Shown here piece after piece: positions 7,321-25,700 of a DNA stretch of 46,622 nt. Under the pieces are notes generated by a model. That model saw nothing but the letters and a program-made list of their open reading frames with translations, searched no databases and was not told the DNA's origin. The stretch lies in assembly GCA_014859545.1 (NCBI GenBank), contig JACUTZ010000003.1, forward strand, positions 1 through 46,622, in the 5' to 3' direction. Position 1 is the stretch's first letter. Every line of letters starts with the position of its first letter. A program made the position numbers and the translations under genes. The DNA is from Gammaproteobacteria bacterium. GTDB lineage: Bacteria; Pseudomonadota; Gammaproteobacteria; Thiohalomonadales; Thiohalomonadaceae.

Positions 7321-8175
7321 TTAGGCACTCAGCACGTTACGCAGTTTCTTCATCGCATTCTTTTCCAGCTGGCGGATGCGCTCGGCCGAGACATTGTACT
7401 TATCGGCCAGCTCCTGCAGGGTGACCTTGTCCTCGTTCAACCAACGCGAGGCGACGATGTCGCGGCTGCGATCATCCAGGTCCCCAAGCGCCATGTGCAA
7501 CTGGTTATTGCTATGCGCTTCCCAATCCTCTTCCTCTACCTGGCTGGCCGGCTCAAAACGCACGTCCTGCAGGTAGCTGGCCGGGGTGACCTCGAAATCG
7601 TCGTCATCACCGCTGTCTGGCGCACCATCAAAGGCCATGTCGCGTCCGCTCAGACGGGATTCCATCTCCAGCACGTCGGCACGGGTTACCCCCAAATCAC
7701 GGGCTACCGCATCGACTTCTTCATGGGAGAACCAGCCCAGACGCTTCTTGGAGCTACGCAGGTTAAAGAACAGCTTGCGCTGGGCCTTGGTGGTGGCGAC
7801 TTTGACGATACGCCAGTTGCGCAGGATAAATTCGTGGATTTCGGCACGGATCCAATGCACCGCAAAGGAGACCAGACGCACGTTCATGTCCGGGTCAAAA
7901 CGGCGTACCGCCTTCATCAGGCCGATATTGCCCTCCTGGATCAGGTCCGCATGGGGCAGGCCGTAACCGCTGTAACCACGGGCGATATGCGCCACAAAAC
8001 GCAGATGGGAAAGGATCAGCTTGCGCGCCGCTTCCAGGTCCTCATGCTCGTGGAAGCGCCTAGCCAGCGCCTGTTCCTGCTCGACAGTCAGTACCGGGAT
8101 GCGATTGACCGCCTGGCTATAGGCCTCAATACTGCTGACCGGGATAGTAAACTGTAAATCCAACGCCTTAGACAT
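7321..8175 (-). CDS. rpoH: RNA polymerase heat-shock sigma factor (sigma-32)
   Basis: A 284-aa sigma-70 family factor that directs RNA polymerase to heat-shock promoters. Region 2 is nearly identical to known RpoH proteins ([18 protein letters not shown], then [17 protein letters not shown]). The RpoH-specific box QRKLFFNLR (about 128-137), tied to FtsH/DnaK regulation, is intact. The C-terminal region 4 helix-turn-helix ([29 protein letters not shown]) is complete. The start at 8175 (MSKALDLQ) is preceded by GGAGGA 5 bases upstream. It normally sits directly after ftsX; here a GGDEF regulator and a palindromic element separate them. A consensus-like sigma-70 promoter lies at 8217-8245. Confidence 0.97.
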
Positions 8176-8216: not shown

Positions 8217-8245
8217 ACTATATCACTCAAGTATTTGCTTGCCAA
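8217..8245 (-). promoter_or_regulatory. Predicted sigma-70 promoter of rpoH
   Basis: Minus-strand TTGGCA (plus 8240-8245) and TATAGT (plus 8217-8222) are separated by exactly 17 bp, each one base from consensus. Transcription would start near 8210, leaving a leader of about 35 nt before the ATG at 8175. It lies downstream of the palindromic element, so rpoH can be expressed independently of ftsYEX. Confidence 0.65.
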
Positions 8246-8310: not shown

Positions 8311-8455
8311 TTAACAGGCTGTTGTTGTCGCTCAGGCGAGTGCGAGAGAAGGCATTGCGGGCGAAAAAGCGCAGTTTACACGTAGTAAATGCGCATTTTG
8401 AGCCCGATTTTAACGCCCTATCGCGACGCATGAGTAGACAACAACAGCCTGTTAA
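8311..8455. repeat. 145-bp palindromic element with perfect 19-bp arms
   Basis: The outer arms at 8311-8329 and 8437-8455 are perfect 19-bp inverted repeats (TTAACAGGCTGTTGTTGTC and its complement). Inside, CGGGC (8358-8362) pairs with GCCCG (8402-8406), AAAA with TTTT, GCGCA (8369-8373) with TGCGC (8390-8394), and TTTAC (8375-8379) with GTAAA (8385-8389) around the 5-nt loop ACGTA. The whole could fold as one long imperfect hairpin. The right arm contains the TAA stop (8452-8454) of the GGDEF gene. It looks like a MITE- or REP-type non-coding insertion. No transposase is present. Confidence 0.8.
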
Positions 8456-9816
8456 GCCACGGGGATACTCTGCCCGACTGGCTCGGGCTCGGCCTCGCTG
8501 GGGGTAATGCTGATGCGGTTGCGACCCGTATTCTTGCTGTGATACAGGGCCAGATCGGCCAGTTGTAACAGACGATTGAGATCCGCATCGGGGTGGTCAT
8601 CGGTACCGGCGATGCCCATACTCACGGTGAAGTGCACCCCCTCGGGCAGCAGGTCCTCACTGGCCTGGCGCAGCGATTCTGCCCGGCGCACCAGATCAAC
8701 GCGGGCCACTGTCGGTAGCAATACCGCAAACTCCTCACCCCCGAAACGCACCACCACCCCATCCGGGAAGTAGCGATTGAGCAGGCTGCCCATGGCCGCC
8801 AACACATGGTCGCCGAGCAGATGACCCAGGGTGTCGTTGATTTGTTTGAAGTGATCAATATCGATGATCAGCACCCAAAACGGCCCACCACGGGACTCGG
8901 CCAGGATGCTATCGCCTCTTTCGCGCATGTAGTGCCGGTTGCGCACCCCGGTCAGGCTGTCGGTGGTGGCGACCTTTTCCATTTTATGGGTCTGGCGCTG
9001 CAGGGCATCGTATTGCTGTTTGATCAGCAATAGCGAGCGCAGACGCGCCATCACGATCTCTTCGACCAGGGGTTTGTTGACGAAATCATTGGCCCCGGCA
9101 TGAAAGGCCTCGATCTGGGTGCGAATATCATCGTTACCAGTGATCATCAGCAAGGGCAGCTCCTGACGGGAGAAATGGTAACGGGTACGGATCGCATGCA
9201 GCAGGTCACCACCGGTCATCTCATCCTTGAGGTGAAAGTCGCTGACCACGATATCAAAGCCCTCTTCTTCGCTGTCCCCTTCTTCGCGCAGACGTTGGAT
9301 GCGGGCCAGGGCCTGTTCGGCCGAGGTCACATGGGTGACCCGCAGGCCATGTTTTTCCATCAGACGGATGGTCACCATTGCGGCGGTGCGACTGTCCTCC
9401 ACATACAGTACCCGCCCGACCAGACCGCTGTTGCGCTGGCAAAAATCCTGGATAAAGGCACCAAAGGCCGGATAACCCAGTGACTTGTCGAAATAATCGG
9501 TCACCCCGGCGGCAAAACCCTCTTTAAGCAAACGGCTATCCGCATCACCGGAGATCACCACTACCGGGGTGTAGTGATGCCCCTGGGAAGAGCGACGCAG
9601 ACGCCGGCACAGGTCCAGGCCATCCATGTCAGGCAGCATCAGTGAAGTGGTGACCAGGTTGTATTGCCCTTGCTCCAACGCCTGCAGGGCCTCCTCGCCA
9701 CTGGCGAAGCTATCGATCCTGGCCCCTTCGATCACATTGGCCAGGATCCGCGCCACAATCTCCCGCGATACAGCGGAACCATCCACCACCATGATGTGAC
9801 TATGCGCAGGTTTCAT
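8452..9816 (-). CDS. Response regulator with two receiver domains and a GGDEF domain (PleD-like)
   Basis: A 454-aa cytoplasmic protein with order REC (about 5-125), REC (about 135-262), GGDEF (about 285-435). In REC1 the phospho-acceptor aspartate is replaced by Ser58 (SLMLPDMDG) while Lys111 remains, so REC1 is a pseudo-receiver, probably for dimerisation. REC2 has Asp193 and Lys248 intact. The cyclase motif GGEEF (359-363) is intact, so c-di-GMP synthesis is likely. The RxxD product-inhibition site expected five residues before the motif is absent. The start at 9816 (MKPAHSHIMVVD) is preceded by GGAGGG. It lies between ftsX and rpoH, where most relatives have no gene. Its last codons abut, and its stop lies in, the palindromic element. 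Confidence 0.92.
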   Translation of the reverse strand: MKPAHSHIMVVDGSAVSREIVARILANVIEGARIDSFASGEEALQALEQGQYNLVTTSLMLPDMDGLDLCRRLRRSSQGHHYTPVVVISGDADSRLLKEGFAAGVTDYFDKSLGYPAFGAFIQDFCQRNSGLVGRVLYVEDSRTAAMVTIRLMEKHGLRVTHVTSAEQALARIQRLREEGDSEEEGFDIVVSDFHLKDEMTGGDLLHAIRTRYHFSRQELPLLMITGNDDIRTQIEAFHAGANDFVNKPLVEEIVMARLRSLLLIKQQYDALQRQTHKMEKVATTDSLTGVRNRHYMRERGDSILAESRGGPFWVLIIDIDHFKQINDTLGHLLGDHVLAAMGSLLNRYFPDGVVVRFGGEEFAVLLPTVARVDLVRRAESLRQASEDLLPEGVHFTVSMGIAGTDDHPDADLNRLLQLADLALYHSKNTGRNRISITPSEAEPEPVGQSIPVA

Positions 9817-9883
9817 CGTAAGACCCTCCAAGTGGCCAGCAGTGTGCTGCCGGCTCGTCATTCTTGTTTTGTGTGTTTACTGC

Positions 9884-22702: not shown

Positions 22703-25700
22703 TCAAGCCGCCCGTTGCAGCATCACTTCGAGCAGGTTTTTCAGATCGGCAGCCTTGGGTTTGACCAGCCAGAACCTGCCGATGTAATCCTCGAAGTTAT
22801 CGAGGATCCGTTTGCCATGCGCAGAGCCGGTTTCACTCACGTACTCTATCAGCATCTCCCGCAGGAAATGGCGATGCGCCTCGGTGGCCTCGGTGTTGAT
22901 GCGATGGCGATCCACATCGCCATTGCAGCGGTCGGCGAAGACATTTTGCTCGTCCAACACAAAGGCAAAGCCGCCGGTCATGCCGGCACCGAAGTTCACC
23001 CCGGTCTGGCCCAGCACGGTGATCACCCCGCCGGTCATGTATTCGGCACAATGGTCACCGGCACCTTCGATCACCGCATGGGCACCGGAGTTACGCACCC
23101 CGAAGCGCTCACCGGCCATGCCAGCGGCGAACAGCTTGCCGCCAGTGGCGCCGTACAGACAGGTATTACCGATAATGGTATTTTCATTGCTGGCATAGCG
23201 GCTGTCGGCGGGCGGACGGATCACCAGCTTGCCACCGGCCATCCCCTTGCCGACGTAGTCGTTGGCATCGCCTTCCAGGTACATGTGCAGGCCACCGGCA
23301 TTCCAGACCCCAAAGCTCTGCCCGGCGGTGCCGTGCAGGCGCAGGGTGATCGGCGCATCACTCATGCCCAGGGTATCCCAGCGTCGGGCAATCTCGCCGG
23401 ACAGACGGGCACCGATGGAGCGATTGATATTGCGCAGCTCGTAGTGGAACTCGCCACCACTACGATGTTCGATCGCCGCCTGACAATCCTTGACCATCTG
23501 TTCGGCCAAGGCCGCCTCGTCGAAGGGGACGTTGCGTGAATCGATGCAGCACTGCGGTTCGTCCGCGCCAGCCAGGCCACCATCGAGGATCGGACGCAGG
23601 TCCAGCTTGGCCTGGCGCTCGGTCACCCCGGGCAGGATCTCCAGCAGATCGGTGCGACCGATCAAATCCTCCAGCTTGCGCATGCCCAGACGCGCCAGCC
23701 ACTCGCGCACCTCGCGGGCAACAAAGCGGAAATAGGTCTCAACCAGTTCCGGCTTGCCCTTGTAGTGCTTGGCACGCAACACATCGTGCTGAGTGGCCAC
23801 CCCGGTGGCGCAGTTATTGAGGTGGCAGATGCGCAGATACTTACAGCCCAGCACCACCATCGGCATGGTGCCGAAGCCAAAGGATTCAGCGCCCAGGATG
23901 GCGGCCTTGATCACATCCAGACCGGTCTTCATCCCGCCATCGGCCTGCACCCGTACCTTGCCGCGCAGGTGGTTCATGCGCAGCACCTGGTGGGCCTCGG
24001 ACAGACCCAGTTCCCAGGGGGAACCGGCATACTTGACCGAGGCGATCGGTGAGGCCGCGGTGCCGCCGTCGTAGCCGGAGATGGTGATCAGGTCCGCATA
24101 GGCCTTGGCCACCCCGGCGGCAATGGTGCCGACCCCCGGCTCGGAGACCAGCTTGACCGAGACCAGTGCCTGCGGGTTGACCTGCTTGAGGTCGAAGATC
24201 AACTGCGCCAGGTCTTCGATGGAATAGATATCGTGATGCGGCGGTGGCGAGATCAGCGGCACCCCGGGACGGGTGAAACGCAGCCGGGCGATAGTGTCGT
24301 TGACCTTATGGCCGGGCAGCTGACCACCCTCACCGGGCTTGGCACCCTGGGCCACCTTGATCTGCAAGACCTCGGCATTGACCAGATAACCCGGTGTCAC
24401 CCCAAAGCGACCGGAGGCCACCTGCTTGATCTTGGAGAAGCGCGCCTTGTCCACATAGCGGGCCGGATCTTCCCCACCCTCGCCGGAGTTGGAACGACCG
24501 CCAAGACGGTTCATCGCCACCGCCAGGGCCTCGTGCGCCTCGGGTGACAAGGCCCCCAGCGACATCGCCGCGGTATCAAAGCGCTTGAACAATTCGGTAT
24601 CCGGCTCGACCTCGCTGATGTCGATCGGGCTGAGGTCATTGCGCAGCTTGAGCAGGTCGCGCAGCACCATCGGCGAGCGATTGTTGACCAGATCGGCAAA
24701 GGCCTGGTAGTCGGCCCATTCGCCACTGTTGACCGCCTGGTGGATGGACTTGACCACATCCGGCTCATAGGCGTGCTGTTCGCCACCGTGTACGTATTTC
24801 AGCAGACCGCCCTGATCAATCGCCTTGCGCGGATTCCAGGCCAGCGCCACCAGCTGCTGGATGTCCTGTTCCAGATCGCTGAAGTCTGCCCCCTGTACCC
24901 GGCTGGTGGTATCGCGGAAACACAGCGACACCACTTCCTCGTGCAGGCCGACGATCTCAAACAACTGTGAACCACGGTAAGAGGCCACCGAGGAGATCCC
25001 CATCTTGGACATCACCTTGTAGAGGCCCTTGTTGATCCCGGCACGGTATTTTTCACCCAGGGCTGCGGTATCGGCGTTTTTCACCTCGCCGCTGCGCACC
25101 AGATCATTCAGGGTTTCATAGGCCAGGTAGGGGTAGATGGCGGTGGCACCATAGCCGAGCAGCACCGCAAAATGGTGCGGATCACGGGCGGTGGCGGTCT
25201 GTACCAGGATATTGGCATTGCAACGCAGTCCCTCGCTGATCAAGCGATGGTGTACCGCACCGGTGGCCAGGGCCGCATGTATCGGCATGGTCTGTTCACT
25301 GATCTGGCGGTCGGACAGGACCAGGATCACCTTGCCGTCACGTACAGCGGCTACCGCCTTGTTGCAGATATCCTCGATCGCCTGCTTGAGTGAGCTGCCG
25401 AGCGGATAATTCAGCTCGATGAACGCATGGGAAAAATCACCCTCGTTATGGGCGAGGATCTGGGCAAACTTGCCCTCGCACAGTACTGGCGAATCCAGCA
25501 CCAGGCGGCGGGCATGCTCAGCGGTTTCTTCAAACAGATTCTTTTCGCGGCCCAGCAGGGTTTCCAGGGACATCACGATCTGCTCGCGGATCGGATCAAT
25601 CGGCGGGTTGGTGACCTGGGCAAACTGCTGACGGAAATTATCGTAGATCGAACGCACCCGGCGCGACATCACCGGATAAGGGGCATCGTCACCCATCGAG

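Follow-up and report, generated by a model that had tools for sequence, protein, structure and literature searches.

In the 46,622-nt window (the whole stretch of DNA that was analysed), a long palindrome lies between rpoH (7321–8175, minus strand; TIGR02392, 425.3 bits against a cut-off of 323.1) and a response regulator gene of the GGDEF type (8452–9861, minus strand; Pfam Response_reg in two stretches, and GGDEF), whose stop codon it contains. This arrangement raises the question of what the palindrome is and whether its arrival altered the regulator or the control of its neighbour. The original prediction was of a MITE- or REP-type element which might have reset the C terminus of the GGDEF protein. 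Our analysis indicates that the palindrome is very probably a non-autonomous IS5-type MITE that inserted at TTAA (YTAR) with the GGDEF stop and product kept, and that it belongs to a superfamily with exchangeable ends, co-varying arms and a conserved hairpin tip.

The predicted perfect end arms were borne out, as the 19-nt segments at 8311–8329 and 8437–8455 are 100% complementary, and the whole 145 nt folds end to end at −75.7 and −76.7 kcal/mol on the two strands (z = −10.2 and −10.4; none of 200 shuffled sequences folded equally well). The focal copy is bordered on both sides by a perfect 4-bp repeat, TTAA, at 8311–8314 and 8452–8455. The 4 bp at the outer end of each arm are therefore taken as duplicated target, and once these are excluded the element proper spans 8315–8451, or 137 bp. 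Its left terminal inverted repeat, CAGGCTGTTGTTGTC, occupies 8315–8329 on the plus strand (assigned from arm complementarity and dispersed motif matches) and the right one 8437–8451 on the minus strand (from arm complementarity). Between them lies a conserved core at 8349–8416, plus strand, made of an AAGGC box, an arm, the tip, the opposite arm and an AACGC box (covariance model R1, 71.5 bits, E = 2.9e-16). The asymmetric tip itself is a 41-nt segment at 8362–8402 on the same strand, corresponding to the near-invariant columns 15–55 of alignment A1. The 137 bp hold no plausible protein gene, in line with the expectation that the palindrome is non-coding.

A search of the organism's own assembly (a 2.44-Mb, 95% complete draft in 253 contigs) returned 53 matches to the palindrome, which merged into about 40 separate places; the dispersed, MITE-like character foreseen in the original prediction was thus confirmed. 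The terminal motif TARCAGGCTGTTGTTGTC occurred 47 times in the genome with up to two mismatches, against 0 for a reversed control pattern, CAGGCTGTTGTTGTC being counted here with TAR in front. Many copies were found at contig ends, where repeats that break an assembly are expected to lie, and whole elements are therefore fewer than ends. The longer copies in this genome contain one or two insertions, each some 75 nt long and composed of small hairpins.

Cassettes of about 50–75 nt comprising several small hairpins were observed at loci L011, L016, L020, L005, L093 (G000/G001, the own genome and that of another species of the genus), L169 and L173. They sit at two fixed spots, next to the GAAAAAG of the tip and before AACGC; their sequences differ while their layout is similar, and one gammaproteobacterial and one Desulfobacterales MAG contain them too. 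At L013 (G000:C202, about 24861–25054), a 50–55 nt piece lies within the hairpin tip and one frame of it reads AQDERYVAVGMDAKNDVH, which resembles the start of an IS110-type transposase and may be what is left of an IS110-type insertion. At L081 (G000:C7, 3685–4015), a second copy of the 3′ end of a tRNA-Leu gene (GGTCGAGTCCGGCCTTCGGCACCATCTT) lies downstream, beyond a hairpin block that resembles the cassettes of the element, and the arrangement looks like the remnant of an integration site at a contig end.

The element has the features of an IS5-type MITE: IS5-type ends, a 4-bp YTAR duplication, a short non-coding sequence and dispersed copies. Autonomous elements with such ends were found elsewhere. 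A 1.5-kb IS on the Mesorhizobium plasmid pMspAR02c has CTAG|CAGGCTGTTGAAAAAGG at one end (also written CTAG|CAGGCTGTTGAAAAA) and an inverted copy before CTAG at the other; it encodes an IS5_4 transposase (NF033581, 267.9 bits, cut-off 140). Elements of like size with ends of this type are present on Microvirga and S. meliloti plasmids, and the second end class of the superfamily, GGAACCTCTGATTAATT, matches IS5_4 elements in genome G141 that are flanked by CTAG or CTAA repeats. The part of the terminal repeat common to IS5_4 elements begins with CAGGCTGTTG, and the ends of the own-genome copies (CAGGCTGTTGTTGTC) agree with those of characterised IS over the first 10 bp only. IS5 insertion sequences of this group (NF033581, transpos_IS5_4) are hence like the element in terminal-repeat type and YTAR duplication, but they are autonomous, 1.2–1.5 kb long and transposase-coding, and the conserved core was absent from the autonomous IS examined.

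The IS5_4 transposase model (NF033581) gave no match in the 95% complete own assembly, so that mobility either lies in the past or depends on something unassembled; a search for exact terminal-repeat pairs in 15 genomes found no pair of IS size. A missing partner is compatible with a MITE, as none is required of an old copy. We infer that the element was mobilised in trans and that a transposase was formerly present in this lineage. An IS5-family transposase would have recognised the 15-bp terminal repeats and inserted the element at TTAA, with duplication of the target, which by chance would have consisted of the GGDEF gene's TAA stop and the third base of the sense codon before it. Because the target spans the stop codon, the gene would keep its stop and its product would be unchanged.

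Duplication of YTAR targets is known for IS5 (PMC10359306), and the elements studied here are flanked by YTAR. Of 99 candidate pairs of class-A ends, which come from a loose pattern and include some spurious ones, 34 show the same tetranucleotide at either side (shuffled mean 8.6, maximum 18 in 2000); in part of the copies the flanking tetranucleotides differ between the two sides. Within the genus, 19 of the 69 candidate element ends fall exactly on the stop of a called gene, and at one locus (L102) a single element between convergent genes has both its ends on gene stops. Of 134 stops of neighbouring genes, 49 are no more than 8 bp from the edge of an element. Insertions at stops are expected to be frequent and harmless, since YTAR is rare within coding sequence and includes TAR, the form of the stops TAA and TAG. 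Gene stops account for 12 of the 41 YTAR sites outside genes in the window and for 14 of 79 such sites in the other flanks. A special mechanism targeting stop codons was therefore rejected, as the YTAR rule combined with the loss of insertions inside genes is enough to explain the coincidence. The target rule thus explains why these hairpins lie so often exactly on stop codons, with no need to invoke regulation.

The position of the duplicated target also bears on the fate of the GGDEF protein. The TAA was found in the right arm as predicted, at 8454–8452 on the minus strand, where it lies within the right copy of TTAA. Since this target is duplicated, the site before insertion would already have read GCT TAA, and the stop would therefore predate the element. 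A family search detected the GGDEF gene in 16 of 20 genomes. Relatives outside the genus with a readable gene end have no element at the locus, and in those that align well the GGDEF protein ends 20–21 residues past a conserved GRN, as does the focal protein. It could be argued that the element made a new stop on insertion and so truncated or extended the protein, given that the stop bases belong to the palindrome and that every end of the element reads outward as TAA or TAG, from which an in-frame insertion could make a stop. With the stop in the older, duplicated TTAA and with element-free relatives of about equal length, we regard such an origin of the stop as very improbable. The C-terminal reset put forward in the original prediction was rejected on these two grounds; judged from the gene sequences, the C terminus is not reset by the insertion and the predicted product is unchanged.

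A fixed regulatory RNA structure selected at this locus, such as a terminator, an mRNA stabiliser or an RNase III site, would accord with the very stable fold, with the position of the hairpin between a gene stop and the promoter region of rpoH, and with the proximity of element boundaries to gene stops described above. This proximity is accounted for by the YTAR rule, however, and the scan of the locus found no terminator-like site. The best promoter-like site ahead of rpoH lies outside the element, at 8245–8217 on the minus strand (TTGGCA-17-TATAGT, 10/12, a consensus match only). The locus is empty outside the genus; copies are many and dispersed, and this position is occupied only here and, by a truncated element remnant directly at the GGDEF stop, in one other species of the genus (G001), which is not the pattern of a single copy conserved in relatives. 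The orientation of the core relative to tandem neighbour genes is unbiased as well (37:37). We therefore consider selection of the hairpin as a fixed regulatory RNA improbable. Together with the intergenic location of 127 of 140 copies, the even orientation also makes a strand-specific RNA role unlikely.

Among described elements, the closest to the MITE proposed here is MITEPsy1 of Pseudomonas syringae pv. phaseolicola, which is 100 bp long, has been shown to transpose and duplicates CTAG or YTAA (PMC3189936). Like the present family, it is short and non-coding, its terminal repeats are of the IS5 type and the duplicated target measures 4 nt; its ends match those of one superfamily member (L161) at 15 of 16 positions. 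It was rejected as a member of the same family, as the core is absent (R1 best score 5.4 bits, E = 0.11, filters off). The Correia elements of Neisseria are set apart from the family by their description, having other terminal repeats and a TA target. They share with it a palindromic MITE structure, length variants with internal segments and a location near genes (PMC10969869). REP and BIME sequences are likewise dispersed intergenic palindromes, but their units measure 20–40 bp (PMC3733652), unlike the focal element with its 137 bp, separate terminal repeats and target duplication. Of the two element types originally suggested, the REP-type identity was accordingly dropped, the length being outside the REP range and the ends and target being of the IS5 type.

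Matches to the focal element in other families have only its middle in common with it. A gapless alignment of 16 diverse copies reads AAGGC-N9-C-GAAAAAGCGSAGTTTACANNNAGTAAATGAGCATTTTGAG-N9′-AACGC, in which 97.7% of cells in the N9 arms are paired; two-sided changes in the arms number 40 where shuffles give 11.8, and none of 500 shuffles reached as many. In 142 copies from outside the genus, most core positions carry 1.5–2 bits and the ends 0.2–0.5 bits, and for most arm positions the nested partner emerged with no structure assumed. Unit length clusters at 138–141 bp in both end classes, while the terminal repeats vary between hosts. Ends and core are separable: in genome G041 (L135–L147), a second MITE family has the same terminal repeats, TAGCAGGCTGTTGAAAAA, around a different internal sequence (CAGCCTGCGTGCGGTGCATGGATGCACTGCC), many of its copies being truncated, and MITEPsy1 likewise combines ends resembling those of L161 with the lack of a core. 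Related palindromes with an GTTTACACGAAGTAAATGAGC tip, different shoulders and ends TAGGGCGTGTTGACAATT or GAGCCTGTTCAAAGTC were observed in at least 15 places in genome G048 (among them L041, L048 and L055), and perhaps form a sister family.

The covariance model detected the family in 124 of the 369 gammaproteobacterial genomes that were sampled, covering 100 of 272 genera. Across the phylum it was present in 67 of 299 genomes. The number of copies scored per genome is often a lower bound. The superfamily also extends beyond Gammaproteobacteria, to beta-proteobacteria and Desulfobacterota: the matches listed in a pattern scan of named genomes include Gallionella, Nitrosomonas, other Nitrosomonadales, Desulfobulbaceae and Desulfuromusa, as well as Pseudomonas, Halomonas and Endozoicomonas. 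No element was detected in E. coli or in phages, and only 8 of 72,556 plasmid records carry one. Ten loci compared with Rfam 15 gave no family at gathering score, and a search of the open literature, subscription papers being outside its coverage, yielded no description of the hairpin family. The family is thus common, occurring in 100 of the 272 gammaproteobacterial genera sampled, and absent from Rfam.

The conservation of the tip calls for an explanation of its own. It probably acts at the DNA level, as a recognition or architectural site in transposition or replication of the element. Somewhat further, and tentatively, we propose that the 41-nt tip serves as a functional module to which some widely conserved factor responds by recognition, and that MITE lineages of many kinds, differing in their IS5-type ends, share it throughout Pseudomonadota and Desulfobacterota. 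In these lineages ends could be exchanged, the tip and the length of about 140 bp would be kept, and the spot adjacent to the tip would repeatedly take up hairpin cassettes. The tip could also have no function of its own and simply mark descent from one horizontally spread MITE, its conservation being an effect of the search. Horizontal movement is possible for MITEs, the classes of terminal repeat resemble diverged forms of a single IS5-type end, and the copies were collected through the tip, which inflates its apparent conservation. A recent common copy does not predict, however, that the arms should have many compensatory changes and the tip remain almost unchanged in the same copies, and we view descent without function as possible but doubtful. 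Co-varying arms can in addition arise with no selection, through correction of palindromes by template switching, but this leaves the conservation of the unpaired boxes unaccounted for. The usual definition of a MITE rests on its ends, the part that the transposase reads. In the family described here, conservation among the collected copies is strongest in the middle, with variation at the ends, and something besides the transposase may therefore select these elements.
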